Shown one piece after another: positions 1,943 to 61,652 of a stretch of 64,000 nucleotides of DNA. The DNA lies in the NCBI RefSeq assembly GCF_000828615.1, contig NZ_AP012273.1, forward strand, positions 744,001 to 808,000, read 5' to 3'. This stretch comes from Thiolapillus brandeum. Lineage in GTDB: Bacteria > Pseudomonadota > Gammaproteobacteria > Chromatiales > Chromatiaceae. Made by a program: the position numbers and the translations under genes. Every line of letters begins with the position of its first letter. Within the stretch, counting starts at the first letter, position 1. Under the pieces are notes generated by a model. It was not told the origin of the DNA, searched no databases, and saw only the letters and a list, made by a program, of their open reading frames with translations.

Positions 1943-3652
1943 GTGATATTTTCGAACGCATCAAAGCGGTTTTTCAACAGTCTATTGTGGGCGTGCCTGT
2001 TGTCTTCGTCATGGATTATGGCGGAAGAAGCTCCGGAGGCCATACCCACCGGTGGTGTGCAGCCGGGTATTTCCGAGTACAAGGATATCGGCAACCCGGG
2101 CAAGGTGGATAACCCGGTTACCAAGCTGGACAAGGACAAGCAGCGCAAATTCACTACCGACCACAGCAAGCTCAAGGAACTCCAGGGCCCATTCAACAGC
2201 GGGCCGGAAGTGACCAAGGCTTGTCTTGGGTGCCACAACCAGGCCGGTGACCAGTTTGTCAGGAACAAGCACTGGACCTGGAGCTACAAACATCCCGTCA
2301 CCGGGCAGCAGCTCGGCAAGGATTATCTGGTCAACAACTTCTGCACCAATGCCCGTGGCAACGAAGGCATGTGCGCCCAGTGCCATGCCGGCTATAACCG
2401 CACCAGTCCCGATTATGATCTCAGCAAGCAGGAGAATATCGATTGCCTGGTATGTCATGACGCTACCGGCAAGTACTACAAGACGCCTCCTACCAAGGGA
2501 AACAAGGCCTGTTCGGTCATGTTTGAGGGGCTCAAACCCATTGACTGGACGAATGTCGCTCAACATGTGCGGCTGCCGGCCAGAAGCAACTGCGGGGGAT
2601 GCCACTTTTTTGGTGGTGGCGGTGACAATGTAAAACACGGCGACCTGTCGTCGGTACTGTTCCATCCACCACGGGATGTGGACGTGCACATGTCCGAGCA
2701 GGGCGAGAACTTTGCCTGCATCATCTGCCATGTGGGTGAGGGGCATGAATGGGCCGGTAGCCGCTACAACATGATCGCCAAGGACGAGAAGGAACATGCA
2801 CTGCCCAAACCGGGCATGGAGCGGGAAACAGCCACCTGTGAAAGCTGCCATGGGGACAAGCCCCATCCTCTGAGTGTCAAGGGTTTGAAACTCAACGATC
2901 ATGTGGACAGGGTGGCCTGTGAAAGTTGCCACATCCCGGCCTTTGCCCGGGGCGGTGTCGCCACCAAGGTGGACTGGGACTGGCGTACGGCGGGGCGTCT
3001 GAGAAATGGTGAAGGCTATAAGGAGGAAGGCTACCAGCAGGGCAATGGCGAGTGGCGCCATACCTACAAGTCCATCAAGGGAAGCTTCAAGTACGACGAA
3101 AATGTAAAGCCCCTTTATCGCTGGTTCAATGGCGTGATGCGTTACACGACCATAGACACCAAATTTGATCCGAACAAGCCGGTCGAGATCAACTATTTCA
3201 GCGGCGATCCGGGCGACCCGGATTCCCGCATCTGGCCATTCAAGCGCATGCATACCATACAGCCCTATGACAAGGGCAACAACACACTGGTGTACATGCA
3301 TTTGTGGGGAAATGATGATGCGGCCTTCTGGGGGAATTATGATTTCGCCAAGGCCATAAAAGTGGGTATGGAAAAGAACGGCATACCCTACAGTGGCGAA
3401 TACGGCTTCATAGAAAGTTACTCCTACTGGCCCATCAATCACATGGTGGCACCCAAGGAAAAAGCCGTGGCTTGTGATGAGTGTCACTCCAAACAAGGGC
3501 GTCTCAAAGAGCTGAAGGGTTTCTACATGCCCGGTCGTGATGCTCCCAAATGGTTGGATATGCTCGGCCTGCTCATGATAGTGGGTTCTCTCGGGGGTGT
3601 GGCGGGCCATGGCCTGTTGCGTATATTGTTGGCCTGGAGGAGGAAGCACTGA
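1943..3652 (+). CDS. Octaheme c-type cytochrome, tetrathionate reductase (OTR) family, membrane anchored
   Basis: Eight CxxCH heme-attachment motifs are visible in order: CLGCH, CAQCH, CLVCH, CGGCH, CIICH, CESCH, CESCH, CDECH. An N-terminal hydrophobic segment ending near IMAEE looks like a Sec signal, so the protein should be periplasmic. A C-terminal hydrophobic helix (LGLLMIVGSLGGVAGHGLL) followed by RRKH should anchor it. OTR of Shewanella is soluble and reduces tetrathionate, nitrite and hydroxylamine in vitro; the physiological substrate here is unknown. I chose GTG at 1943, with AGAGGG six bases upstream, over a TTG at 1898 that would extend the signal. The stop overlaps the start of the cytochrome b gene by one base. 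Confidence 0.88.
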   Translation: MIFSNASKRFFNSLLWACLLSSSWIMAEEAPEAIPTGGVQPGISEYKDIGNPGKVDNPVTKLDKDKQRKFTTDHSKLKELQGPFNSGPEVTKACLGCHNQAGDQFVRNKHWTWSYKHPVTGQQLGKDYLVNNFCTNARGNEGMCAQCHAGYNRTSPDYDLSKQENIDCLVCHDATGKYYKTPPTKGNKACSVMFEGLKPIDWTNVAQHVRLPARSNCGGCHFFGGGGDNVKHGDLSSVLFHPPRDVDVHMSEQGENFACIICHVGEGHEWAGSRYNMIAKDEKEHALPKPGMERETATCESCHGDKPHPLSVKGLKLNDHVDRVACESCHIPAFARGGVATKVDWDWRTAGRLRNGEGYKEEGYQQGNGEWRHTYKSIKGSFKYDENVKPLYRWFNGVMRYTTIDTKFDPNKPVEINYFSGDPGDPDSRIWPFKRMHTIQPYDKGNNTLVYMHLWGNDDAAFWGNYDFAKAIKVGMEKNGIPYSGEYGFIESYSYWPINHMVAPKEKAVACDECHSKQGRLKELKGFYMPGRDAPKWLDMLGLLMIVGSLGGVAGHGLLRILLAWRRKH

Positions 3653-4305
3653 TGCCGGTTCGCAAGGTAAAAATTTTTGATGGTTTTGAACGGTTCTGGC
3701 ACTGGACTCAGATGGCGCTCATCTTCACGCTGTTGTTCACGGGCCTGCGCATTCATGGGGTACATGCCTGGTTGAACTTTGATCAGGCTGTGAATGTTCA
3801 CACTCTGGCAGCCCTGGGTTTGATGTTGTTGTGGGTATTTGCCATCTTCTGGCATCTGACTACGGGGGCCTGGCGTCAATACCTGCCCACCCTCAACGGC
3901 CTGTGGCCAGTGATGCGCTACTATGCCTGGGATATCTTCCAGGGCAAGCCCCATCCCTATCGCAAGCATCTGACGCGCAAGCACAATCCTCTGCAGGCCA
4001 TGACTTATGCAGCACTGAAACTGCTGCTGTTTCCCGCCATCTGGGTGTCGGGGCTGACCTATCTGTTCTATAACTACTGGCAACAGGGAGCCAGCAGTCC
4101 CTGGCTTTACTGGGTGGCCAATATTCATGTTCTTAGCGCCTACGCCATTCTCACTTTTGTGATCATTCATGTGTATATGCTCACTACGGGAAGCTCTTTC
4201 AGTCATCATGTGATGCCCATGATTACCGGCTATGATGAAGTAGAGCTGACGGAAGCCGAGCTGGCCTATCTTGAGCAGGACGAGCCCCAGCGTCTGAAGC
4301 GCTGA
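3652..4305 (+). CDS. Cytochrome b561/b6-type membrane subunit
   Basis: A 217-residue protein with four predicted membrane helices and histidines placed like a di-heme b-type cytochrome: FWHW near residue 18, a VHTLA histidine, FWHLTTG, and NIHVLSAY followed by IIHVYML. This is the family that carries electrons between the quinone pool and periplasmic partners, as in the b subunits of thiosulfate reductase and Ni-Fe hydrogenase. Its ATG overlaps the stop of the octaheme cytochrome gene (TGATG) and has GGAGGAGG upstream, so the two are translationally coupled. I infer that it passes electrons from quinol to the octaheme protein, or the reverse. The C-terminus is a cytoplasmic acidic tail. Confidence 0.85.
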   Translation: MPVRKVKIFDGFERFWHWTQMALIFTLLFTGLRIHGVHAWLNFDQAVNVHTLAALGLMLLWVFAIFWHLTTGAWRQYLPTLNGLWPVMRYYAWDIFQGKPHPYRKHLTRKHNPLQAMTYAALKLLLFPAIWVSGLTYLFYNYWQQGASSPWLYWVANIHVLSAYAILTFVIIHVYMLTTGSSFSHHVMPMITGYDEVELTEAELAYLEQDEPQRLKR

Positions 4306-4500
4306 TTGCTCCATAGGGGTCACCGTCCATAGGAAGTCCCGGCTTTGTGTTGTGCATGGCCGGGATTCCGGTAATGGTTCCCATTCCTTCGGCAAGTCCC
4401 AGTCTTCAGTAGTATTCAATGGTATTCTTCACTGTTATCCGATAGAAAAACCGGCGCGATCTGTAGCGTCGACAGAATGTAATTTCAGGAGCTGTAAATA

Positions 4501-7245
4501 ATGTCAAAAAAGATGGTGTTTTCATTCAAGGAAGGCGATGGAAAAAATAAACATCTGTTGGGAGGAAAGGGCGCGAATCTTTGTGAGATGACCCAGATCG
4601 GGCTGAATGTGCCACCGGGTTTCGTCATTTCCACCGAAGCCTGCCTTGCGTATCTGGATTCTGATACCGATGAACTGCCTGAAGGCGTCATGGATGAAGT
4701 GCATGAGCAGATGAAACAGGTCGAACAGGCTACGGGAAAAGGCTTTGGCGATGCCGAGAATCCCCTGCTGGTCTCTGTGCGTTCCGGTTCCGCCATGTCC
4801 ATGCCTGGCATGATGGATACCATTCTCAATCTGGGTCTGAATGCCCGGACACTCAAAGGCGAGATCAAGCAGACCGGTGATGAGCGTTTTGGCTATGATT
4901 CCTATCGTCGTTTTATCCAACTGTTCGGGAAAGTGGCGCTGGGTATTGCGGACGAACTATTTGACGAGGAGTTCAACAAGGTCAAGGAAAGCGCTCATGT
5001 TACCGAGGATGTCGGCCTGTCCGCAGACAACCTGCGGGATATCAGCGAACGCTTCCTGGCGGTAGTGGAGAAGGCAACCGGACGCCCCTTTCCGGAAGAT
5101 CCTTATGAACAGCTGGAAATTGCCGTCAAGGCCGTGTTCCGTTCCTGGATGGGCAAGCGGGCAGTGGATTACCGTCGCGAGTTCAATATCACGCCGGATA
5201 TGGCCAATGGCACGGCGGTGAATGTCTGCACCATGGTGTTCGGCAACCGTGGTGATGATTCCGCCACGGGCGTCGCCTTTACCCGCAACCCGGCGACGGG
5301 GGAGAACAAGCTGTACGGAGAATACCTGGTGAACGCCCAGGGTGAGGACGTGGTGGCGGGCATCCGCACCCCCAAACCCATCGATCGTCTGGCGGATGAA
5401 ATGCCCCAAATGGCGAAGGAAATCGAGGAACTGCGGCAGAAACTCGAAGCCCATTATCACGAGGTCCAGGATTTTGAGTTCACCATCGAACGCGGTGTGC
5501 TCTATTGCCTGCAGACCCGTAATGGCAAAATGAATGCTGCTGCCATGGTGCGTACCTCGGTAGAGATGGAGAAGGAAGGGTTGATCAGCCGTGACCAGGC
5601 CTTGCTGCGTATTGCGCCTGATGACCTGGAACAGATGCTCTATCCGCGCATCGATCCCAATGTCCGGGTGACGCCGCTGGCCCAGGGTCTGCCCGCTTCA
5701 CCGGGTGCGGCCAGCGGGCATGTGGTGTTCGATGCTGATCGGGCGGAAGCCGAAGCCAAGAAAGGCCGAACCGTAATTCTCATGCGGGAAGAAACCAAGC
5801 CCGAGGATATTCATGGCTTCTTCGCTTCCAAGGGCATTCTCACCAGCCGTGGTGGCAAGACGTCTCACGCGGCCGTGGTAGCACGCGGTATGGGCAAACC
5901 CTGTGTGGCCGGCGCCGAAGGCATCTCCGTGGACGTGCAACTGCGTGAAGCCTTTGTGGGGGATACGGTGATTCGTGAAGGTGATCTGGTTACCATCGAT
6001 GGCACCAGCGGCAAGGTGTACCTGGGGGCTGTGCCCACAGTGGAAGCGGATTTTTCCGCAGAGCTGAATATCCTGCTGGGCTGGGCGGACGAAGTGGCGC
6101 GCCTGAGCGTTATGGCCAATGCCGATACGGCCCTGGATGCGGATCGGGCGCTGAAATACGGCGCCAAGGGTATTGGCCTGTGCCGCACGGAGCGCATGTT
6201 CAACACGACGGATCGTCTGCCGGTGGTGATCGAAATGATCATGGCGGAAACCACCGAGCACCGTAAACATTCGCTGAACAAGCTGCTGCCCATGCAGCGT
6301 CAGGATTTCCAGGAACTGTTCGAAACCATGGCGCCCTATCCGGTGACCATTCGCCTGCTGGATCCGCCCATCCATGAGTTCCTGCCTTCGGAACAGCAAC
6401 TCAAGGATGACCTGGCGTATCTGCAGCAACTGCGTGACTCGGTACGAGGGCTGGAGGTGCTGTCGGGCACCATGTCCCTGTTGCAGACGGAGAATGAAGA
6501 ATTCTTCATGCCACAGATGGTGGAGTCCCGGCAGGTAGAGGAAGCCATCATCAAGAAGGAAACCATGCTCAAGAAGGTCAAGGCCTTGTATGAAACCAAC
6601 CCCATGCTGGGACACCGGGGTGTACGTCTGGGCATTACCTTCCCTGAAATCTACGAGATGCAGATTCGGGCCATTCTCGAAGCGGCCGTGGAATGTGACA
6701 AGAAAGGGCTGGAGATTCATCCCAAGATCAAGGTGCCCCAGGTCTGTACGGCGCAGGAACTGCTCTACGTCAAGGAAATCGTGGACCGGGTCAGCGCCGA
6801 ACTGGAAGAGGGGTTGGGGCACAAACTGGAGTTCCAGTTTGGCACCATGATCGAGGTGGTGCGCGCCTGCATGCGCGCAGACAGCCTGGCGAAACAGGCG
6901 AACTTCTTCTCCTTTGGCACCAACGACCTGACCCAGGCGACCTTCTCTTTCTCCCGGGAGGACGCCGAGAACAAGTTCCTGCCTTTGTACAATGAAAGAG
7001 GCATTTTGCAGAACAATCCTTTCGATGTGCTGGATGAAAAAGGCGTGGGAAAACTCATGGAACTGGCGGTGAAATGGGGCCGGGAGCGGCGGCCTGATCT
7101 GTTGGTGGGGATTTGCGGTGAGCATGGCGGCCACCCCCGGTCCATTCATTTCTGCCATCGTATCGGCCTGGATTATGTGTCCTGCTCTGCACCACGCATA
7201 CCCGTCGCCAGGCTGGCCGCGGCCCATGCCGCCCTGATGGAATAA
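4501..7245 (+). CDS. ppdK: Pyruvate, phosphate dikinase
   Basis: 914 residues, slightly longer than the roughly 875 of bacterial PPDK. It interconverts pyruvate, ATP and phosphate with PEP, AMP and pyrophosphate in the cytoplasm. Domain order is clear: N-terminal ATP-grasp nucleotide-binding domain, central swivelling domain with the phospho-accepting His456 in TSRGGKTSHAAVVARG, and C-terminal PEP/pyruvate TIM barrel with the CGEHGG motif (Cys872). The ATG is preceded by AGGAG at a normal distance. It stands alone between the cytochrome pair and a converging polyferredoxin gene that ends only seven bases away. PPDK supports gluconeogenic PEP formation or pyrophosphate-linked glycolysis; direction is not evident here. 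Confidence 0.96.
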   Translation: MSKKMVFSFKEGDGKNKHLLGGKGANLCEMTQIGLNVPPGFVISTEACLAYLDSDTDELPEGVMDEVHEQMKQVEQATGKGFGDAENPLLVSVRSGSAMSMPGMMDTILNLGLNARTLKGEIKQTGDERFGYDSYRRFIQLFGKVALGIADELFDEEFNKVKESAHVTEDVGLSADNLRDISERFLAVVEKATGRPFPEDPYEQLEIAVKAVFRSWMGKRAVDYRREFNITPDMANGTAVNVCTMVFGNRGDDSATGVAFTRNPATGENKLYGEYLVNAQGEDVVAGIRTPKPIDRLADEMPQMAKEIEELRQKLEAHYHEVQDFEFTIERGVLYCLQTRNGKMNAAAMVRTSVEMEKEGLISRDQALLRIAPDDLEQMLYPRIDPNVRVTPLAQGLPASPGAASGHVVFDADRAEAEAKKGRTVILMREETKPEDIHGFFASKGILTSRGGKTSHAAVVARGMGKPCVAGAEGISVDVQLREAFVGDTVIREGDLVTIDGTSGKVYLGAVPTVEADFSAELNILLGWADEVARLSVMANADTALDADRALKYGAKGIGLCRTERMFNTTDRLPVVIEMIMAETTEHRKHSLNKLLPMQRQDFQELFETMAPYPVTIRLLDPPIHEFLPSEQQLKDDLAYLQQLRDSVRGLEVLSGTMSLLQTENEEFFMPQMVESRQVEEAIIKKETMLKKVKALYETNPMLGHRGVRLGITFPEIYEMQIRAILEAAVECDKKGLEIHPKIKVPQVCTAQELLYVKEIVDRVSAELEEGLGHKLEFQFGTMIEVVRACMRADSLAKQANFFSFGTNDLTQATFSFSREDAENKFLPLYNERGILQNNPFDVLDEKGVGKLMELAVKWGRERRPDLLVGICGEHGGHPRSIHFCHRIGLDYVSCSAPRIPVARLAAAHAALME

Positions 7246-51476: not shown

Positions 51477-52481
51477 ATGAGAAACAAGAAAATACTGGTT
51501 ACAGGCGCCGATGGTTTTATTGGCTCACATCTCGTCGAGTCCCTGGTGAGGGCAGGTCATGATGTGCGGGCCTTCGTGCTTTACAACTCCTTCAATAGCT
51601 GGGGATGGCTGGACCAGTGCTCTGCGGATGTGGCCGGTCACTTCGAAGTGTTTGCAGGCGATATACGCGACCCAAACGGTGTGCGCACGGCCATGAAAGG
51701 ATGTGATGGCGTGTTGCATCTTGCGGCTCTGATTGCCATACCTTTTTCCTACCATTCACCGGATACTTACGTCGATACCAATATCAAGGGTACGCTGAAC
51801 GTGGTGCAGGCTGCACGTGATCTGGAAGTGGCAAGGGTGGTACAGACCTCCACCAGTGAAGTTTATGGTACGGCACGCTACGTGCCTATTGACGAGGCGC
51901 ATCCCCTGCAGGGGCAATCACCTTATTCCGCCAGCAAGATCGGCGCAGATCAGATTGCCATGTCATTCCACAGCGCTTTTGACACTCCTGTTGTTTTGCT
52001 CAGGCCGTTCAATACCTACGGTCCGCGACAGTCTGCGCGAGCCGTTATTCCTACAATCATCACCCAAATTGCCAATGGGCAGCGACGCATCAAACTGGGT
52101 TCCCTGTATCCCACGCGGGATTTCAGTTACGTGGAGGATACCGCAAGAGGCTTCATGGCGGCGCTGGAAGCGCCCAAGGCCATAGGTGAGGTGATCAATA
52201 TCGGCAGCGGCTTTGAGATCAACATTGGCGATACTGCCAGGGCAATCGCTGAAGAGATGGGCGTGGAAATAGAGATTGTCACTGATGATCAGCGCCTGCG
52301 CCCGGAGAAAAGCGAGGTGGAGCGCCTGTGGGCGGATAACAGCAGGGCTGCACAACTGCTGGGCTGGACACCTGCCTATGGCGGCAGGGAAGGATTTGGC
52401 CGTGGACTTGGTGAAACCATTGCCTGGTTTGAGGATAAGGAAAACCTCCGACAGTACAAGAGCCACCTGTACAATATTTGA
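51477..52481 (+). CDS. legB: LegB-type UDP-sugar 4,6-dehydratase
   Basis: 334-residue extended SDR: VTGADGFIGSHLVESLVRAG, then FVLYNSFNSWGWLDQ, HLAALIAIPFSYHSPDTYVD, catalytic TSTSEVYGTA and Tyr/Lys in PYSASKIGADQIA. These stretches are the hallmark of LegB, the enzyme that dehydrates UDP-GlcNAc or GDP-GlcNAc in the legionaminic acid pathway. It opens the nonulosonic acid unit, followed five bases later by legC. Confidence 0.9.
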   Translation: MRNKKILVTGADGFIGSHLVESLVRAGHDVRAFVLYNSFNSWGWLDQCSADVAGHFEVFAGDIRDPNGVRTAMKGCDGVLHLAALIAIPFSYHSPDTYVDTNIKGTLNVVQAARDLEVARVVQTSTSEVYGTARYVPIDEAHPLQGQSPYSASKIGADQIAMSFHSAFDTPVVLLRPFNTYGPRQSARAVIPTIITQIANGQRRIKLGSLYPTRDFSYVEDTARGFMAALEAPKAIGEVINIGSGFEINIGDTARAIAEEMGVEIEIVTDDQRLRPEKSEVERLWADNSRAAQLLGWTPAYGGREGFGRGLGETIAWFEDKENLRQYKSHLYNI

Positions 52482-52485
52482 TTCC

Positions 52486-53667
52486 ATGAGTAATGACGGA
52501 AATAATCTGGCGGCTGCAATCGTTACCACCATTCGTGATGTTGTGGGCGAGGGTGACAAAGTGCTGCACGAGCCTGTTTTCCGGGGCAACGAATGGGCCT
52601 GTCTGAAAGAATGCCTGGATTCCGGCTATGTATCTTCCGTCGGTGAATTCGTCAGCCGTTTTGAAGAAGCCTTGCAGGACTACACCGGCGCAGCCCATGC
52701 CATTGCCGTGGTAAATGGTACCGAAGCTTTGCACATGGCATTGTTGCTAGCCGGGGTGGAGCCAAATGATGAAGTGCTGGTGCCGGCACTGAGCTTCATT
52801 GCCACGGCAAATGCTGTCACTTATTGTGGCGCCGTTCCCCATTTCGTGGATAGTGAAGGGGAGAGCCTGGGCATAGATGCTGAGAAGCTGCGTGATTATC
52901 TTGCCTCTATCGCCAGACAGCAGAATGGTATTTGTTTGAACCGCCACACCGGGAGAGTGATAAGGGCTCTGGTTCCCATGCATGTGTTTGGTCACATGTG
53001 CGATATGGACGCCTTGCTGGCCGTGGCGGAGGAATATGGTTTGGTTGTGGTGGAGGATGCCGCCGAGGCGTTGGGCAGTTTTCGTGACGGCAGCCACGCT
53101 GGCACCAGGGGACTGTTCGGAATACTCAGTTTCAATGGCAACAAGATACTCACAACGGGGGGTGGCGGCGCCATTCTTACCAATAATGCAACCTTGGCCA
53201 CCAAGGCCAGGCACCTGACTACCACGGCAAAGCTGCCGCATCCCTGGCGTTATCGTCATGATGCGGTGGGCTACAATTGCCGTATGCCCAATATCAATGC
53301 GGCTTTGGGCTACGCCCAATTGGAACAGCTCCCCGTTTTTGTAGAGAACAAACGTAAATTGTTTGCGCGCTACCACGACGCCTTTTCTTCCATGCCTGAT
53401 GTGAAGATCTTGCAGGAGCCGGCGGGTTGCCACAGCAATTACTGGCTGCAAACCCTGATGCTGGCCCCAGACCAGGCCGGGCAACAGGAAACGCTGCTGG
53501 AGTATGCCCAAGACCAGGGACTCAAGCTGCGTCCCGCCTGGGAATTGCTTAATCATCAGACACCATATAGCGATATGCCCTCCATGCCGACGGATGTGGC
53601 TGAAGCACTTCAGCAAAGGCTGATCAATCTTCCCAGCGGCGCAGATTTGGGAGGGGATCATGTCTGA
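52486..53667 (+). CDS. legC: LegC-type aminotransferase
   Basis: 393 residues of the DegT/DnrJ/EryC1/StrS family. PLP Lys220 is in SFNGNKILTTGGGG; the PLP-ring Asp lies in VVVEDAAEALGS. It aminates the 4-keto sugar made by LegB. LegC-type N-terminus: DKVLHEPVFRGNEWACLKEC. I chose ATG at 52486, right after the legB stop; the open frame extends farther upstream within legB but is not homologous. Overlaps the acyltransferase gene by eight bases. Confidence 0.9.
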   Translation: MSNDGNNLAAAIVTTIRDVVGEGDKVLHEPVFRGNEWACLKECLDSGYVSSVGEFVSRFEEALQDYTGAAHAIAVVNGTEALHMALLLAGVEPNDEVLVPALSFIATANAVTYCGAVPHFVDSEGESLGIDAEKLRDYLASIARQQNGICLNRHTGRVIRALVPMHVFGHMCDMDALLAVAEEYGLVVVEDAAEALGSFRDGSHAGTRGLFGILSFNGNKILTTGGGGAILTNNATLATKARHLTTTAKLPHPWRYRHDAVGYNCRMPNINAALGYAQLEQLPVFVENKRKLFARYHDAFSSMPDVKILQEPAGCHSNYWLQTLMLAPDQAGQQETLLEYAQDQGLKLRPAWELLNHQTPYSDMPSMPTDVAEALQQRLINLPSGADLGGDHV

Positions 53668-54286
53668 GAGTGGCCTGATATTGTTGGGGGCGGGCGGTCA
53701 TGCACGGGCCTGCATTGACGTTATAGAGCAAGTGCCGGGTTTTAAACTTGGTGGGCTGGTGGGCGAAGCCGGGGAAGTGGGAAGGAAAGTACTGGATTAC
53801 CCCGTGCTTGCCACGGATGCAGATTTGCCTGTGCTGCGTCAGCAGTATGAGTGTGCCCTGGTGGCGGTGGGCCAGATTCACACAGCCAAGTTGCGCCGGC
53901 AACTTTTCAGCCGGGCGGAAGCCGCAGGTTTTCATTTGCCGGTAATCATTTCTCCCCATGCCTGGGTGTCACGGCACGCAAGCTTGGCTGAGGGAACCAT
54001 CGTCATGCACGGTGCCATTGTCAATGCCGGCGCCAGTATCGGTCGTAACTGCATTATCAACAGCCATGCCCTGGTGGAGCACGACGCACAGGTGGCGGAT
54101 CATTGCCATATTTCCACTGCAGCGGTTCTCAATGGTGGAGTGACGGTTGAGCAGGGTTGTTTCGTCGGTAGCGGCAGCATAGTCAGGGAAGGTGTTCGGC
54201 TGGGAGAAAATAGCCTGGTTGGCATGGGCGCGATGATTCGTCATGATCTGGCAGCCGGTGACCGGGTCCCGGGGGGGCGAAAGTGA
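53660..54286 (+). CDS. NeuD/PglD-like sugar O/N-acyltransferase
   Basis: 208 residues. A Rossmann-like N-terminal part (LILLGAGGHARACIDVIE) binds the sugar nucleotide, and the second half is a left-handed beta helix (hexapeptide repeats such as HASLAEGTIVMHGAIVNAGA, CIINSHALVEHD). PglD and NeuD have the same layout, with a catalytic His in HALVEHD. Placed between legC and legI it fits the N-acetyltransferase step (LegH) of legionaminic acid synthesis. NeuD-type O-acetylation is the alternative. Its TGA overlaps the GTG of legI. Confidence 0.83.
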   Translation: MSESGLILLGAGGHARACIDVIEQVPGFKLGGLVGEAGEVGRKVLDYPVLATDADLPVLRQQYECALVAVGQIHTAKLRRQLFSRAEAAGFHLPVIISPHAWVSRHASLAEGTIVMHGAIVNAGASIGRNCIINSHALVEHDAQVADHCHISTAAVLNGGVTVEQGCFVGSGSIVREGVRLGENSLVGMGAMIRHDLAAGDRVPGGRK

Positions 54287-55287
54287 GTAAGACACTGATC
54301 ATTGCCGAAGCCGGTGTCAACCATAACGGTTCTCTGGAAACCGCCCTGGCCCTGGTGGATGCTGCTGCGGCAGCGGGGGCGGATGTGGTCAAGTTCCAGA
54401 CCTTCCAAGCGCAACACCTGGTTACTGCCACCGCGCCGAAAGCGGCTTACCAGGAACAGGATGGGCAGGGGGAGAAAAGCCAGTACCAGATGCTAGGCAA
54501 GCTTGAACTGAGCCGGGAAATGCACCTGGTGTTGGGTAAACGATGCAAGGAGCAAGGTGTCGCCTTCAATTCCACGGCTTTCGATACGGAGAGCATGGAT
54601 ATGCTGGTATCCATGGGAATGGACTTTATCAAGATTCCCTCGGGTGAGATCACCAATTATCCCTACTTGTGCCACGCCGCCCAGCAGGGCTTGCCCATAC
54701 TGCTTTCCACGGGTATGTCGAACATGGAAGACATACGCCAGGCCCTGGCCGTATTGGAGGACAATGGCATGGACAGGCAGCAGATTACCCTGCTGCACTG
54801 CCACACGGATTACCCCACCCGTATGGAAGATGTAAACCTTAGGGCCATGACCAGCATGTACTCGGCCTTCGGTATGCCGGTGGGGTATTCCGATCATACC
54901 CTGGGACTGGAAGTGCCCATTGCAGCAGTAGCTCTCGGCGCGGTAGTCATCGAAAAACACTTCACCCTGGGCCGGGATATGCCGGGGCCGGATCACGCCG
55001 CCAGTCTGGAGCCGGAAGAGTTGCGCCAGATGGTGCAGGCCATCCGTAACATAGAAATGGCCCTTGGTGATGGTGTCAAGCAACCAACGGCACGTGAACA
55101 GGCTATGCAAGCAGTGGCGCGCCGCTCTATTGTCGCTGCCTGTCCCATCCGCGCCGGTGAGCCCTTCACTGAATATAATCTTGCCGCCAAGCGACCTGGA
55201 ACTGGTATCTCACCCATGTACTGGAAAGAATTGATGGGTAAGCCCGCCAAGCGGGACTATGATGCTGATGAGATTATAGAACCATGA
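54283..55287 (+). CDS. legI: LegI/NeuB-type nonulosonic acid synthase
   Basis: 334 residues. The NeuB barrel starts IIAEAGVNHNGSLETALALVD with KFQTFQAQHLVT; metal and substrate residues are in FIKIPSGEITNYPYL, GMSNMEDI and HCHTDYPT; a C-terminal antifreeze-like SAF domain (CPIRAGEPFTEYNLAAKRPG) caps the active site. It condenses the hexose with PEP to form legionaminic (or related) acid. Starts at GTG overlapping the previous stop. Confidence 0.92.
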   Translation: MSKTLIIAEAGVNHNGSLETALALVDAAAAAGADVVKFQTFQAQHLVTATAPKAAYQEQDGQGEKSQYQMLGKLELSREMHLVLGKRCKEQGVAFNSTAFDTESMDMLVSMGMDFIKIPSGEITNYPYLCHAAQQGLPILLSTGMSNMEDIRQALAVLEDNGMDRQQITLLHCHTDYPTRMEDVNLRAMTSMYSAFGMPVGYSDHTLGLEVPIAAVALGAVVIEKHFTLGRDMPGPDHAASLEPEELRQMVQAIRNIEMALGDGVKQPTAREQAMQAVARRSIVAACPIRAGEPFTEYNLAAKRPGTGISPMYWKELMGKPAKRDYDADEIIEP

Positions 55288-56468
55288 GCAGGAAGGTCTG
55301 TGTACTTACCAGTACCCGGGCAGACTATGGCCTGTTGCGCTGGTTGATGAAAGAAGTCTCCTCCTCGCTGCGCCTGGAACTGCAAGTCATTGCAGCGGGC
55401 ATGCACTTATCTGAAAAATATGGTCAGACTTGGCATGAGATAGAAGACGATGGCTTTAACATCGATGAAAGGGTTTCCATGGATCTCGAGGAAGATTCTC
55501 CGCTTGCCGTATCCAGAGCCATGGGGCAGGCGCTGATCGGTTTTGCTGGTGCCCTGGACAAGCTACAACCCGATATTCTGATGCTGCTGGGCGACCGGTT
55601 TGAAATATTGGCCGCCGCTTCCGCTGCGCTGTTGGCGGGTATTCCTGTCGGGCATATTCATGGCGGAGAAGTCACAGAGGGGGCCATGGACGAATCTTTG
55701 CGCCATGCCATCACCAAGATGTCGCAGCTGCATTTTGTTGCTGCCCGATCCTACCAGCGTCGCGTACTACAAATGGGAGAAATCCCGGAGCAGGTGTACC
55801 TGGTGGGTGGCCTTGGCGTTGATGCCATCCAGCGCCAGCCGTTGTTGAAAAGATCTGAGTTGGAAAAAAGCCTGGGGCATGCTCTGGGAAAATCCAACCT
55901 GCTGGTGACCTGGCATCCTGAAACCCTGCTGGATTCCGCTGCCGGATCCGGATCCCTGGACGCTTTGCTGGCGGTGCTCGAAGAACAAAAGAATACGCAC
56001 ATTATCATTACGCTGCCCAATGCCGATCCTGGTAATAACTTGATTCGGCAGCGTATGGAAGACTTTGCGGCGTCTCACGAACACGTGTTTGCCCATGCTT
56101 CCCTGGGACAATTGCGCTACCTGTCCCTGTTGAAGATCGCCGATGCCGTGCTGGGGAATTCCTCCAGTGGCCTGCTGGAAGCGCCCACGCTGGGCACACC
56201 GACGGTTAATATCGGCGACCGTCAACGAGGCCGGTTAAGAGCAGACAGCGTCATCGATTGCAAAGGCTACCGTCAGGATATTCGCGCGGCTCTGGACAAA
56301 GCCATGTCTCCCGCTTTCCAGGAAATGGCAGCGAATGTCGAAAATCCCTATGGTCGGGGTGGTGCTGCCAGCCGTATTGTTGAGATACTGGAATCCCTGT
56401 CCCTGGATGGGCTGCTCCTCAAACCCTTCAACGACCTTTCTTTCGAGATGCCGGAGACAAGCCGATGA
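55284..56468 (+). CDS. legG: LegG/NeuC-type UDP-sugar 2-epimerase (hydrolysing)
   Basis: 394 residues in the NeuC family: VLTSTRADYGLLRWLMKEV at the N-terminus, GDRFEILAAASAALLAGIP, GHIHGGEVTEGAMDESLRHA, and the C-terminal GNSSSGLLEAPTLGTPTVNIG. It epimerises and hydrolyses the UDP-linked bacillosamine derivative, giving the free sugar used by LegI. The ATG overlaps the legI stop (ATGA). Confidence 0.92.
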   Translation: MSRKVCVLTSTRADYGLLRWLMKEVSSSLRLELQVIAAGMHLSEKYGQTWHEIEDDGFNIDERVSMDLEEDSPLAVSRAMGQALIGFAGALDKLQPDILMLLGDRFEILAAASAALLAGIPVGHIHGGEVTEGAMDESLRHAITKMSQLHFVAARSYQRRVLQMGEIPEQVYLVGGLGVDAIQRQPLLKRSELEKSLGHALGKSNLLVTWHPETLLDSAAGSGSLDALLAVLEEQKNTHIIITLPNADPGNNLIRQRMEDFAASHEHVFAHASLGQLRYLSLLKIADAVLGNSSSGLLEAPTLGTPTVNIGDRQRGRLRADSVIDCKGYRQDIRAALDKAMSPAFQEMAANVENPYGRGGAASRIVEILESLSLDGLLLKPFNDLSFEMPETSR

Positions 56469-57523
56469 CCACGACTGCTTCCTGGAAGAATACACTGCTT
56501 GGCCAGGATGCCAGCCTCAGGGAGGCTATAGAAAATCTCGACCACAGCGGCCTGCAGATCGTGCTGGTGGTGGATGCCCAAGGCCTATTGCAGGGTACTG
56601 TCACTGATGGCGATATACGCCGGGGCCTGCTGCGCGGACTCACCCTGGAAAACTCCATAAACGAGATTATTCACCGGGATGCCTTTGTGGTGCCGCCTGA
56701 TATGGACAGGAAAACTGTGCTGGCCCTGATGCAGGCAAACGAGATCCGGCAACTGCCCATCGTGGATGAACAACGCCGGGTTTTGGGTTTGCATCTTTGG
56801 AATAAACTGGCCGCGCCTGCCCCCCGACACAATACCATGGTCATCATGGCCGGAGGCCAGGGAAGTCGGCTTCGGCCTCATACAGAGAACTGCCCCAAGC
56901 CGCTGCTGCCAGTGGCGGGCAAGCCGATGCTGGAACACATCATCCTGCGGGCCAAAGAAGATGGCTTTCGTCGTTTTGTGCTGGCGCTACATTATCTGGG
57001 ACATATGGTGGTGGATCATTTCGGCAATGGAGAGGCCCTGGATGTGGAGATCAGCTACATCCGTGAACCCGCTCCCATGGGCACGGCTGGTGCCTTGGGC
57101 TTGCTCGATCCTCTGCCCGGCGAGGCCCTGGTGGTCACAAACGGGGATGTCCTCACGGATATCAGTTATGGTGACCTGCTGGATTTTCACCGGCATCACG
57201 GGGCAGCAGCCACCATGGCCGTGCGCAGTCACGAGTGGCAGAACCCTTTCGGCGTGGTCAACACCCAGGGTGTGGAAATCGTCTCCATCGATGAAAAACC
57301 CGTTTACCGCAGCCATATCAACGCGGGCATCTATGTGCTGGAGCCTGATCTGCTCATGAGCCTGAAAGGGAAAGGGCGCATGGACATGCCAGAACTGTTT
57401 ATCGAACAGCGGCAGCAGGGCCAGCGGGTGCTGGCCTACCCCATGCACGAACCCTGGCTGGATGTGGGGCGTGAACAGGACTTGCTGCGTGCACGGGATG
57501 AACGGGGAGAAGGCAAGTCGTGA
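56465..57523 (+). CDS. PtmE-like CBS-domain nucleotidyltransferase
   Basis: 352 residues. Residues 1-115 contain two CBS motifs (IVLVVDAQGLLQGTVTDGDI, RQLPIVDEQRRVLGL). The remaining part is an NTP-transferase: MAGGQGSRLRPHTENCPKPL, KPMLEHII, and INAGIYVLEPDLL. PtmE of Campylobacter, which makes GDP-glucosamine for legionaminic acid, has this CBS plus guanylyltransferase layout. The place between legG and legF supports the same job. Its stop overlaps the start of legF. Confidence 0.85.
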   Translation: MTTTASWKNTLLGQDASLREAIENLDHSGLQIVLVVDAQGLLQGTVTDGDIRRGLLRGLTLENSINEIIHRDAFVVPPDMDRKTVLALMQANEIRQLPIVDEQRRVLGLHLWNKLAAPAPRHNTMVIMAGGQGSRLRPHTENCPKPLLPVAGKPMLEHIILRAKEDGFRRFVLALHYLGHMVVDHFGNGEALDVEISYIREPAPMGTAGALGLLDPLPGEALVVTNGDVLTDISYGDLLDFHRHHGAAATMAVRSHEWQNPFGVVNTQGVEIVSIDEKPVYRSHINAGIYVLEPDLLMSLKGKGRMDMPELFIEQRQQGQRVLAYPMHEPWLDVGREQDLLRARDERGEGKS

Positions 57524-58245
57524 ATGAAAAAGCCGCCCTCGGTTCAAAAAAAATCATTGCCATCATTCCCGCGCGTGCCGGTAGCAAGCGGTTGCCTGGC
57601 AAGAACATGCTTGACCTTGGGGGCAAGCCGCTGGTGCAGTGGAGCATGGATGCGGCATTGGAATCAGGCGTATTTCAGGAAGTCTATGTCAGTAGTGATG
57701 AACCCGCCATACTGGATCTGGCCAGGCGGTTGGGTACGGTGGCGGTAAAGCGGCCGGCGGCCCTGGCCACGGATCAGGCATCCCTGGTCGAGGTGGTAAA
57801 ACATGTACTGGAACAGGTTCAGGAAAAAGCCGCCCTGCCGGATGCCTTCATGCTGTTGCAGCCCACCTCTCCCCTACGCACCGCGGACGATATTCGTCAG
57901 GCTGCGCGCCTGTGGCGGGATACCCGTGCGCCGGCGGTGATCTCGGTTTGCGAGGCGCATCATTCGCCGCTTTGGTGCGGTATCCTGGATGAGGATGGTG
58001 GCATGGATGAATTCATTGCCGCAGTAAACAACAGGCGGAGCCAGGAGTTACCGCAGTATCACTGCCTGAACGGAGCCATCTACCTGCTGGATAGCAGAGT
58101 GTTTCTCGCCCGGAACAGCTTCCTCCCTGACGGAGCCAGGGCTTACCTGATGCCACGGGAACGTTCTGTCGATGTTGATACGAGTATAGACCACTTGTTT
58201 GCAAATTTTCTGATTAAACATCATACGCCCAATAATCTACCGTGA
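57520..58245 (+). CDS. legF: CMP-nonulosonic acid synthetase (LegF/NeuA)
   Basis: 241 residues of the acylneuraminate cytidylyltransferase family: IAIIPARAGSKRLPGKNMLDLGGKP-type start (motif ARAGSKRLPGKN), YVSSDEPAILDLA, QPTSPLRTADDIRQA, and the C-terminal DVDTSIDHLFAN. It activates the nonulosonic acid with CTP for transfer. GTG start overlaps the PtmE-like stop. It closes the core pathway unit. Confidence 0.93.
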   Translation: MNEKAALGSKKIIAIIPARAGSKRLPGKNMLDLGGKPLVQWSMDAALESGVFQEVYVSSDEPAILDLARRLGTVAVKRPAALATDQASLVEVVKHVLEQVQEKAALPDAFMLLQPTSPLRTADDIRQAARLWRDTRAPAVISVCEAHHSPLWCGILDEDGGMDEFIAAVNNRRSQELPQYHCLNGAIYLLDSRVFLARNSFLPDGARAYLMPRERSVDVDTSIDHLFANFLIKHHTPNNLP

Positions 58246-58460: not shown

Positions 58461-59288
58461 GTGAAGTATATGAAAATATTTGGGTTGCTATTAGTTAAAA
58501 ATGAAGATGATATTGTTGAAGAGGTTATTGCCGATGCTCTTAAGTGGGCGGACAAAATATTTGTAGTAGATAACTGTAGTAATGATAATACTTGGGATAT
58601 TATTAAAAAATTGGCGTCAGACAGAGTGGTAGTATGGGGTAGAATATATACTAATTTTCAAGAAGGTCTTAGGTCTATTGTCTGGGAAAGTATACGACAT
58701 GAAGCAAATGAAGGAGATTGGTGGTGTTTTATGGATGCGGACGAATTTTATTATGACAATCCGCGACAATTTTTATCGGATATACCGGATAGATATGGAG
58801 TGGTCGCAACAAATACTATAGAGTTTGTCCCATTGCAATCGCAAGAAAGATTATTTGAATCTATAAGTGGTTTTGATAAAGAAATCTTTGAAAGATATAT
58901 GCCGCTTAATTGGTCAGAAAGTAGATTCTTTAAGTCAACAAATAAATTAAAATATAATGGTTTAACATCAAGATTGCCATTTGCTACTCGTGCTATGTAT
59001 ATTGATAGAATAAAAGTGTTTCACTATCCTCTACGATCGGCAAAGCAAATACAAAAAAGATTAGATACAAGAAGAAATGCGGTCGAGAATGGTTTTAATG
59101 GTTGGGGTCATGCTGTACAGGATAAATGGCAAGAAAAATTGTATCGAGATGATGATACAAAATTAAAATCATTGAAAGATGATGGATTGCAGTGGGGTAG
59201 TTGCGCTGTAAACTTTAATATAAATAGTATGAATTTTATAATCAGGAGATGGGTGAAATCAATAATGTACTATTTTCGGTTGCTATGA
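58461..59288 (+). CDS. Glycosyltransferase family 2 protein, AT-rich
   Basis: 275 residues with the GT-A start FGLLLVKNEDDIVEEVI, VVDNCSNDNTWDI and a DxD-type metal motif in CFMDADEFYY, followed by a basic C-terminal region. The gene is markedly AT-rich, with many AAA, ATA and TTA codons, unlike all genes upstream, which suggests recent acquisition. It probably adds one sugar of the repeat unit; donor and acceptor cannot be told. Confidence 0.8.
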   Translation: MKYMKIFGLLLVKNEDDIVEEVIADALKWADKIFVVDNCSNDNTWDIIKKLASDRVVVWGRIYTNFQEGLRSIVWESIRHEANEGDWWCFMDADEFYYDNPRQFLSDIPDRYGVVATNTIEFVPLQSQERLFESISGFDKEIFERYMPLNWSESRFFKSTNKLKYNGLTSRLPFATRAMYIDRIKVFHYPLRSAKQIQKRLDTRRNAVENGFNGWGHAVQDKWQEKLYRDDDTKLKSLKDDGLQWGSCAVNFNINSMNFIIRRWVKSIMYYFRLL

Positions 59289-59360: not shown

Positions 59361-60401
59361 ATGGGTTTGACAAAAAATATCGGCTTTGCCATAACGGAGT
59401 ATCAGCAGATAGTGCTTGGGGCTGTTTGCAGGCAGGAGAAGCTGCGTTTTGAATGCATTTTTGTGAGGGAGAATATTCGTCTGAATCCGGCTTTATGCCA
59501 GAGCGCGGATACTGTGGTTACTCTTCGGGATATACCATATTCATGGCGCTCTTTGCCCGAATATAAAAGAGAATATGAAGATGTAGTAAGACCGCATTTC
59601 ATTGGTGGAAATGAATACCTATTGTTTGCTCACAGTATCGAGCATCCGTTGATAAAATTGGCCGTTAAGACGCTGCCTTCTATTTGTGTGGAGCTGATTG
59701 AAGAAGGTGTTGGCTCGTATGTGTCCTGGGGAAGAGGATTTAGTAACGGCGATATTCGTACCCGCATGTCTGTATTTATGATAGCCACGGGATTGCTTCT
59801 GTACGGCGGTTATGGACGCATTCCCACTCAGCGGCTTAAAGGAGGGTGGTCGCTGTATCCCAACTGTTTTCCGGACTACCCCGTGGAATCCCGGCATATT
59901 CGTAAAGAGATTTTTCGGGAAACACTGGAAGGCTTTGCCCCGCCGGGTGAAAGAATCATGTTTCCGAAAAACAGTGTCGTGTTTATTCAGCAGCCCTATG
60001 TGGAAATGGGAATACTGGATGAAGCTACATATATTGCCATACATGAGCAGGCGATGGCGAGCTTGAAAAGGATTTCCGAACAGGAGAATGAGGTAATCTG
60101 GATGCTGCATCCACGCACTCATTGTGAGGAGGAGAAACAGAGACTTTCGAAAATGACCATCGATTCTACAAACATAAAGGTCTTACAGCCATCTCAAGGT
60201 ATCGAGCAAGTGGCATTGAGTAATAAGGGTAATGAGATTGTCTATCTGTCTTTTGGCTCCAGTGCCCTTTATACGTTGAGCTTGTTGATAGACAAGCCGG
60301 ACCGCTTGTTTCAGCTGGAAAATATGGTCCTCAAGAAACTTCTTCCTGTTCAACAGGAAGTTAACAGGTTTTATAGAGAACTTGGAGTACCGTTGCTGTG
60401 A
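59361..60401 (+). CDS. Sialyltransferase-like (polysialyltransferase-type, GT-B) protein
   Basis: 346 residues. Three marks of bacterial sialyltransferases are in the right order and spacing: the D/E-D/E-G motif as E114-E115-G116 in ELIEEGVGSYVSW, the HP motif as His250-Pro251 in WMLHPRTH, and the serine pair S300-S301 in SFGSSALYTL. These are shared by GT38, GT52 and GT80 enzymes, which use CMP-sialic acid. It follows a CMP-legionaminic acid pathway, so transfer of that sugar is the natural guess. Base composition is intermediate between its AT-rich neighbour and the rest. The start is the first ATG after a 72-base gap. Confidence 0.72.
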   Translation: MGLTKNIGFAITEYQQIVLGAVCRQEKLRFECIFVRENIRLNPALCQSADTVVTLRDIPYSWRSLPEYKREYEDVVRPHFIGGNEYLLFAHSIEHPLIKLAVKTLPSICVELIEEGVGSYVSWGRGFSNGDIRTRMSVFMIATGLLLYGGYGRIPTQRLKGGWSLYPNCFPDYPVESRHIRKEIFRETLEGFAPPGERIMFPKNSVVFIQQPYVEMGILDEATYIAIHEQAMASLKRISEQENEVIWMLHPRTHCEEEKQRLSKMTIDSTNIKVLQPSQGIEQVALSNKGNEIVYLSFGSSALYTLSLLIDKPDRLFQLENMVLKKLLPVQQEVNRFYRELGVPLL

Positions 60402-60682: not shown

Positions 60683-60686
60683 GTTG

Positions 60687-61652
60687 ATGTCTCATCCCCA
60701 AGTGACCGTGGTAGTGCCCCTTTATAACAAGGAACAGACTATCGTTCGTTGCATAGACTCCGTGCTTTCCCAAAGCCATGAGGATTTCGAGTTGCTGGTT
60801 ATTGATGATGGCTCCACGGATGGTGGTGCAGATCGGGTGAAGAACATGCTTGATACCCGTATTCAATTGCATCGACAGACGAATGCGGGCCCATCAAGCG
60901 CCAGGAACAAGGGGTTGGATCTTGCTCGCGGGGATTTCGTGGCCTTTCTCGATGCGGATGATGAATGGCGTCCCCGTCACCTCGAATTTCTGCTTCAGGG
61001 TTTCCACCTGTTCCCAGGCGCGGTGTTGGTGTGCAATGACCTGGTGGAAGCAAGGGGTGGCAAGCTGTCCCAAGGCGCGCGCCAGTTCGATCTGCCAACA
61101 GCGGAAGCTAGCCTTGAGGGCGAGGATTACCATCTGCTGCAAGACTACCTGCAAACCCTGGCGGACGGCCATTTTATCCTGTCCGGCAGCAGCGTGATGC
61201 TCAGAACTCACATCGTACGAGATGCCAGCCTGTGGTTTCTCAGTGAGGCCGAACCGGCGGAAGACGTGAACTATTGGATTCGTTTGTCCGGTATTGGCCC
61301 TTTTGTCTATTGTAGCTACCAGGGAGCGGTCTATCATCGGGATGATCCCGATAGCATCATGAATCGCCTGAATCGAATGGCCGCTCCGGTGCCACCGTTT
61401 CTTGAGTCGGTGGAAGTGGGTAGCCTGTCCGGTGAACAGCAGCACCAGCTACGGCGGTTCCTCAGTCGGGAGTATTTGAAAAAGGCCTATCAGAACCGCG
61501 GAAAGCCCGGTACCGGGCAAGAGTATCGCCTGTCCGGCCAGGCGGGGATATCTCCGGGAATGATGGTCCGCCTTGCCTATGTGGTGATCCGTTATGTCCC
61601 CGAATGGCTGTTTCAGCCGGCGCTGAGCCTGCGCAGGAGTTTGCGCCGGTGA
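60687..61652 (+). CDS. Glycosyltransferase family 2 protein
   Basis: 321 residues: VTVVVPLYNKEQTIVRCIDS, VIDDGSTDGGADRV, and the metal motif FLDADDEW, all standard for GT2. Its C-terminal 90 residues are basic and may touch the membrane (MVRLAYVVIRYVPEWLF). Donor and acceptor unknown. The ATG follows a TTG by one codon. Its TGA overlaps the next GTG. Confidence 0.87.
   Translation: MSHPQVTVVVPLYNKEQTIVRCIDSVLSQSHEDFELLVIDDGSTDGGADRVKNMLDTRIQLHRQTNAGPSSARNKGLDLARGDFVAFLDADDEWRPRHLEFLLQGFHLFPGAVLVCNDLVEARGGKLSQGARQFDLPTAEASLEGEDYHLLQDYLQTLADGHFILSGSSVMLRTHIVRDASLWFLSEAEPAEDVNYWIRLSGIGPFVYCSYQGAVYHRDDPDSIMNRLNRMAAPVPPFLESVEVGSLSGEQQHQLRRFLSREYLKKAYQNRGKPGTGQEYRLSGQAGISPGMMVRLAYVVIRYVPEWLFQPALSLRRSLRR

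Follow-up and report, generated by a model that had tools for sequence, protein, structure and literature searches.

We consider it likely that the gene at positions 59361 to 60401 of the window (the whole stretch of 64,000 nucleotides analysed here, from Thiolapillus brandeum) encodes an inverting CMP-legionaminic acid transferase of the Pfam family PF07388, which adds legionaminic acid (Leg) to the repeat of a surface polysaccharide. The fold, donor, acceptor, linkage and mechanism of this enzyme, as well as the transfer of single residues rather than a polymer, are those that we infer. The original prediction had proposed a legionaminic acid transferase; the transferase function is likely right in view of the family match and the motifs, while for legionaminic acid as the donor it is the gene context that speaks. 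The gene is a good, fairly ordinary candidate for an enzyme type with few proven examples. Proven legionaminic acid transferases are scarce, and a compact PF07388 protein encoded next to a Leg pathway offers a ready test case that could serve in making Leg glycans, where sialyltransferases are described as substitutes (PMC11356810). No publication joining legionaminic acid with PF07388 (A-2_8-polyST) was found in a literature search, by which we do not claim that the enzyme is unreported; literature on Sedimenticola exopolysaccharide held nothing relevant among the matches listed.

Seven pathway genes lie upstream of the candidate, and the annotated genes of the region are the following.

51477..52481, + strand: LegB, NAD-dependent 4,6-dehydratase (TIGR04180, 525 bits; cut-off 475)
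52486..53667, + strand: LegC aminotransferase (TIGR04181, 514.6 bits; cut-off 420; scanned from the longer ORF 52276-53667, with the start set at 52486)
53660..54286, + strand: LegH-type N-acetyltransferase of the NeuD/PglB family (TIGR03570, 192 bits; cut-off 160.8)
54283..55287, + strand: LegI, NeuB-type nonulosonic acid synthase (TIGR03569, 493 bits; cut-off 399.65)
55284..56468, + strand: LegG, NeuC-type 2-epimerase (TIGR03568, 453.6 bits; cut-off 235.9)
56465..57523, + strand: sugar-1-phosphate nucleotidylyltransferase with CBS domains, which we take to be of the PtmE type (PF00483 and PF00571 over cut-off)
57520..58245, + strand: LegF-type CMP-nonulosonic acid synthetase (PF02348, 95.6 bits; cut-off 22.6)
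58461..59288, + strand: GT2-family glycosyltransferase between the CMP-synthetase and the candidate (PF13704 and PF00535 over cut-off)
59361..60401, + strand: candidate CMP-legionaminic acid glycosyltransferase of the PF07388 family, 346 aa (reading frame, PF07388 match, and a 44% identical homologue next to the corresponding pathway in L018, a Sedimenticola metagenome-assembled genome)
60684..61652, + strand: GT2-family glycosyltransferase (PF00535), counterpart of L018 5958-6920 (67% identity)

The neighbouring genes had been predicted to make a CMP-activated sialic acid-like sugar, and this is borne out by five of them (LegB, LegC, LegH, LegI and LegG), which pass their NCBIfam cut-offs, together with the PF02348 cytidylyltransferase. 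For the PtmE-type gene, none of the best 25 of 68 NCBIfam matches is over cut-off. The best NCBIfam match of the LegF-type synthetase is PseF (145 bits, under the cut-off of 205.7), and the models matched by the synthase and the epimerase carry the names of Neu5Ac or UDP-GlcNAc. These three matches would fit an enzyme of the same class with another donor, namely Neu5Ac, a pseudaminic acid or Kdo taken from its CMP form, with Leg handled by a different enzyme. We regard such a donor as unlikely: the genome holds a single NeuB-family gene, and it sits in the cluster with LegB and LegC.

The candidate had been placed directly downstream of the pathway, but the GT2 gene at 58461-59288 separates it from the CMP-sugar synthetase at 57520-58245. 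The G+C content of this GT2 gene is 0.331 (0.254 at third positions), against about 55% in the surrounding locus, and the gene is absent from the corresponding place in L018; it therefore looks like a later, recent insertion in the window genome. Its position nearer to the CMP-synthetase raises the possibility that the GT2 protein is the Leg transferase and that the candidate does something else, which is very improbable given its absence from that place in L018 and a base composition that marks it as a separate arrival. GT2 enzymes, moreover, use nucleoside-diphosphate sugars. The Bacillus subtilis GT2 protein SpsA is described as dispensable for Leg transfer (PMC7439481).

The wider locus includes genes for PF00953, CpsB/CapC, Wzz-like and Wzy_C proteins, an ABC transporter, GT4 glycosyltransferases, an asparagine-synthase-type amidotransferase and an EpsG-type protein, and its product is therefore probably a mixed surface polysaccharide. 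Downstream of the window, the same polysaccharide locus contains IS110-type and IS66-type transposase genes (L137, 7854-10825).

The reading frame of the candidate is intact, with 346 codons from the ATG at 59361 to a stop ending at 60401. The protein matches PF07388 (A-2_8-polyST, alpha-2,8-polysialyltransferase) with an E-value of 1.6e-13 and 51.3 bits, the gathering cut-off being 23.3, and the match spans profile positions 82-308 of 316. The L018 homologue also exceeds this cut-off (3.3e-8, 33.9 bits). As yardsticks, NeuS of E. coli UTI89 and the solved Mannheimia SiaD (MhPST) match the family at 2.7e-44 and 1.6e-38, respectively. No NCBIfam model was over its cut-off for the candidate, a PHROGs search gave nothing significant, and PF07922 (GT52) was absent from the Pfam matches at E up to 1. 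The description of the protein as otherwise distant from known families thus gives way to a match over a curated cut-off, and no non-sialyltransferase profile, which would have counted against the assignment, appeared over cut-off in Pfam or NCBIfam.

In pairwise comparison the candidate is nevertheless distant from the characterized members. The blastp alignment with NeuS has an E-value of 0.076 over 14 residues, only LIEEGxGxY being similar, and hhalign aligned 48 columns with a probability of 6.7%. A search of the PDB with the candidate or a two-sequence profile gave no meaningful match to solved relatives, and MhPST was not matched at E up to 10 by the candidate alone, by the 2-member profile or by a 13-member profile (A5). 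The A5 profile and alignment comprise the candidate, the L018 homologue and 11 of the 21 PF07388 frames of our genome surveys, which were hand-picked mainly for carrying the motifs, the other 10 frames being omitted. With this profile, GT80 sialyltransferases were found in the PDB (best whole-sequence E 3e-5), which the candidate protein alone did not match; the match runs through the catalytic DDG and the HP-to-SS stretches, neither of which reaches significance by itself (E 3.1 and 0.15). The candidate is the sole gene of its genome matching A5. NeuS is, we assume, a GT38 enzyme. Since the direct similarity to NeuS is weak and MhPST was not matched, the best reading of the sequence would file the candidate in PF07388 and not demonstrably in GT38, the family in which MhPST is classed (PMC5517516).

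The EEG (residues 114-116), HP (250-251) and SS (300-301) motifs occur in order at exactly the residues originally reported; a second HP at residues 95-96 is not the motif. The predicted functional sites of the protein are given below.

59700..59708, + strand: EEG motif, residues 114-116, with E115 as the predicted catalytic base (alignment with NeuS LIEEGTGTY, NeuS-MhPST alignment, and PmST1 YDDG under the family profile)
60102..60104, + strand: M248 in place of the Lys/Arg of (K/R)XHP (alignment with NeuS and PF07388 survey members)
60108..60113, + strand: HP motif, residues 250-251, with H250 as the predicted CMP phosphate ligand, equivalent to MhPST H291 (alignments)
60204..60206, + strand: E282, predicted ribose-binding glutamate, equivalent to MhPST E323 (the same in all 13 members of the alignment A5, and opposite a glutamate in NeuS)
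60258..60263, + strand: SS motif, residues 300-301, with predicted phosphate binding, equivalent to MhPST S339 and T340 (alignments)

When the candidate was aligned with NeuS and 12 relatives, Q16, E114, E115, H250, E282, S300 and S301 fell on NeuS residues which, through the NeuS-MhPST alignment, correspond to Q44, E152, E153, H291, E323, S339 and T340 of MhPST. The motifs [DE][DE]G, HP and S[ST] stand at equivalent positions throughout this set of hand-picked members, apart from one (L040) that aligns ADG at the first of them; the [DE][DE]G tripeptide is present in 12 of the 21 PF07388 survey frames. In MhPST, E153 is described as the catalytic base, H291, S339 and T340 as binding the CMP phosphate and E323 as binding the ribose, and D141 of PmST1 as the counterpart of E153 (PMC5517516). 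By sequence alignment, the motifs of the candidate thus coincide with active-site residues, as the original prediction presupposed. HP and SS are also common to CMP-Kdo transferases (PMC12887879), which would suit a donor other than Leg, but the EEG base is kept in both the candidate and its homologue, as in the inverting polysialyltransferase (PMC5517516).

The ordered EEG-HP-SS pattern, with broad spacing windows, arose in 0.35% of 20,000 shuffles of the candidate protein, and the looser [DE][DE]G-HP-S[ST] pattern in 0.95% of 20,000. Among 527 frames of 250-450 aa, listed mechanically in all six frames (some of them non-genes) from 52 fetched regions, the loose pattern was borne by 18: 10 PF07388 matches, the L018 homologue and 7 others. 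One of these others (L107:2814-4118), which adjoins another Leg cluster, has an N-acetyl sugar amidotransferase as its PDB match (E 1.3e-141). The motifs by themselves are of moderate specificity only. Because 18 of the 527 frames carry the loose pattern, one of them an amidotransferase, the motifs alone would not carry the claim, and we rejected them as sole evidence.

The basic residue of the (K/R)XHP motif, described for CMP-sugar transferases (PMC12887879), is Lys in NeuS and in the 11 aligned PF07388 survey members, and in 20 of the 21 survey frames overall, but Met248 in the candidate and Ala in L018. Together with a G+C content of 45%, where the pathway genes have 54-58%, this loss could point to an inactive or decaying gene. 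We find decay barely credible, since the reading frame is intact and EEG, HP and SS are retained in the candidate and the L018 homologue, two species, at 44% identity; the Kdo transferase KrkA is likewise described as having Ser in place of the Lys/Arg (PMC12887879).

MhPST R259, which has been linked to the binding of the sugar chain or the donor (PMC5517516), is Lys in NeuS and corresponds to P212 of the candidate, in a stretch where the alignment is weak; the position of MhPST K293 is occupied by Arg. The proline bears on whether the candidate could be a polymerase that makes a legionaminic acid homopolymer, as NeuS does with Neu5Ac. NeuS, a polysialyltransferase, does belong to PF07388, and the layout of the E. 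coli UTI89 locus (NulO genes, a DUF6716 putative glycosyltransferase and NeuS) resembles that of the window. A homopolymer is nevertheless quite improbable: besides the proline, several other glycosyltransferases and the Wzy_C and EpsG-type proteins of the locus suggest a mixed repeat unit, and a genome-wide search for PF05159 (KpsS/KpsC-type) gave no match.

An AlphaFold2 model of the candidate, built from two sequences only, is of low confidence (mean pLDDT 47.8, pTM 0.43). Foldseek found no match to it in the PDB below an E-value of 0.001. The first two rows were CMP-Kdo transferases (E 0.018 and 0.019), and MhPST was absent from the best 50 rows listed. After re-alignment of the low-confidence model with VIA-align, the polysialyltransferase structure 5wc6 came first (Z 10.0, 205 residues, rmsd 7.7) and 5wcn second (Z 9.9, rmsd 8.4), followed by the CMP-Kdo transferase KrkA in third and fourth place (Z 8.7) and by unrelated proteins at Z 8.2 and 8.1. 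The place of KrkA next to the top is a further point for another donor. The ranking of this low-confidence model agrees with the profile result and is no proof of it. The protein had been called sialyltransferase-like, which is upheld by the PF07388 match, by motifs on known catalytic and donor-binding residues and by the leading polysialyltransferase and CMP-Kdo transferase structures for the low-confidence model. In the suggested comparison with sialyltransferase families, GT38 structures rank first for that model and the family profile matches GT80; PF07922 of GT52 gave no match and MhPST none by sequence.

In L018, the homologue lies at 4052-5095, its start overlapping the stop of LegF (3348-4055) by four bases. 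The contig begins at LegI, and its order is LegI, LegG, PtmE, LegF, the homologue, GT25 and GT2. The GT25-family gene right after the homologue occupies 5007-5897; flanking glycosyltransferases vary between relatives. A search of relatives recovered a close relative of the candidate in 1 of 54 other genomes, and a search of the class in none of 368. The genome bearing the homologue (G008) is placed in the same genus as the window genome, and by eye its protein is the same as that of L018; the window genome, that of a marine bacterium, would accordingly stand in or near Sedimenticola. A scan of genome contigs, resting on two peptide patterns, confirmed one locus among 104 pattern matches, and no relatives were found among viral contigs and plasmids. 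A third genome (L003/L026) closely repeats the arrangement of the window: the CMP-synthetase gene and the PF07388 gene overlap at the end of the former, LegB (70%) and LegC (54%) are nearby, and homologues of PtmE, LegH and LegI are present as well.

In total, and counting the window genome each time, PF07388 was matched in 14 of 369 genomes of the class (10 over cut-off) and in 9 of 398 genomes of the phylum (8 over cut-off), with one genome (G284) in both surveys. Of the 20 PF07388 regions sampled from genomes other than our own, some of them shortened by contig ends, 9 contain a NeuB homologue and 11 do not, against none of 20 control regions taken around GT4 genes (Fisher p 0.0012). With PF07388 matches over cut-off only, the proportions are 6 of 15 and 0 of 20 (p 0.003). 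The controls were drawn from the best-scoring GT4 matches, and the test is a rough one. Two PF07388 genes (L040 and L042) lie near NeuB homologues of 33-37% identity and LegB/LegC homologues of 25-34%, which can be read as a sign of other nonulosonic acids and hence in favour of another donor. The PF07388 match at L042 (8919-10025), near a NulO cluster, holds one TAG and one TAA stop.

LegB was over cut-off in 11 of 229 class genomes besides our own, and only 2 of these 12 LegB genomes (the window genome and G106) have a PF07388 match, the other 10 being absent from a class match list that does not name every genome searched; PF07388 is therefore not the usual partner of Leg clusters. The A5 profile found nothing below an E-value of 0.5 near the Leg clusters in those 10 genomes or near one sub-threshold LegB locus (L106-L116), some of these regions being short. 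Ten neighbour genes chosen from 7 of these 11 Leg regions matched no sialyltransferase family in Pfam; two matched PF13524 (glycosyltransferase-like), three oxidoreductase domains, three other domains and two no family. In two other Leg clusters, related genes that have no Pfam match follow PtmE (L107 2814-4118 and L110 3086-4270), and a HisF-like gene (PF00977) lies alongside the former. The amidotransferase match and the HisF-like neighbour in L107 suggest that amidino-legionaminic acid may be made in that genome.

As for the preferred reading, a CMP-Leg transferase of PF07388, the candidate would be a cytoplasmic, metal-independent, inverting glycosyltransferase of the GT-B type. Its donor would be CMP-activated legionaminic acid, or an acylated form, supplied by the seven upstream pathway genes, and Leg would be added to a surface polysaccharide repeat while this is being extended, probably linked to a lipid. 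If the enzyme works like the solved polysialyltransferase, E115 may deprotonate the acceptor hydroxyl, with the CMP phosphate bound by H250 and S300/S301 and the ribose by E282. A more tentative idea, to which we give somewhat less than even weight, is that the two homologous proteins form a PF07388 branch dedicated to CMP-Leg, in which nucleotide recognition was rebuilt, the (K/R)XHP lysine that recognises cytosine was replaced, and the activity shifted from polysialic acid to isolated Leg residues within a mixed polysaccharide.

Among known systems, the GT38 polysialyltransferases (NeuS and MhPST, PDB 5wc6/5wcn) share with the candidate the order of catalytic residues, including a glutamine (Q16 here, aligned through NeuS with MhPST Q44), and supply the best re-aligned structures for the low-confidence model. 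The candidate differs from them in having no detectable similarity to MhPST, in the replacement of R259/Lys by Pro and of K293 by Arg, in its predicted donor, Leg, and in a product that is probably no homopolymer. Compared with PF07388 as a whole, it matches over cut-off and has the residues that never vary in the 13-member alignment (HP, the Glu at the ribose site and the Gly within EEG), EEG and SS being common in kind, but it departs in the lost Lys before XHP and in the lack of pairwise similarity to NeuS beyond LIEEGxGxY. The likeness to the GT80 enzyme of Pasteurella (PmST1/PM0188) appears with the 13-member profile, through DDG and HP-to-SS, but not with the candidate alone.

Maf proteins presumably fall in PF01973, and a genome-wide search for PF01973 (MptE/Maf-type) gave no match in the window genome, the positive control being matched only in archaea. 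This sets the candidate apart from Maf4 of Campylobacter jejuni, a putative legionaminyltransferase that glycosylates flagellin and is a proposed user of CMP-Leg (PMC9298399). SpsB of B. subtilis resembles the candidate by description, with DEG and HP motifs and a place by the Leg genes, yet it is described as dispensable for Leg transfer (PMC7439481); by this precedent, motifs and a Leg neighbourhood can mislead. The evidence for the candidate exceeds motifs and neighbourhood, since it includes a match to a curated profile and an overlapping arrangement of the gene in a second species.
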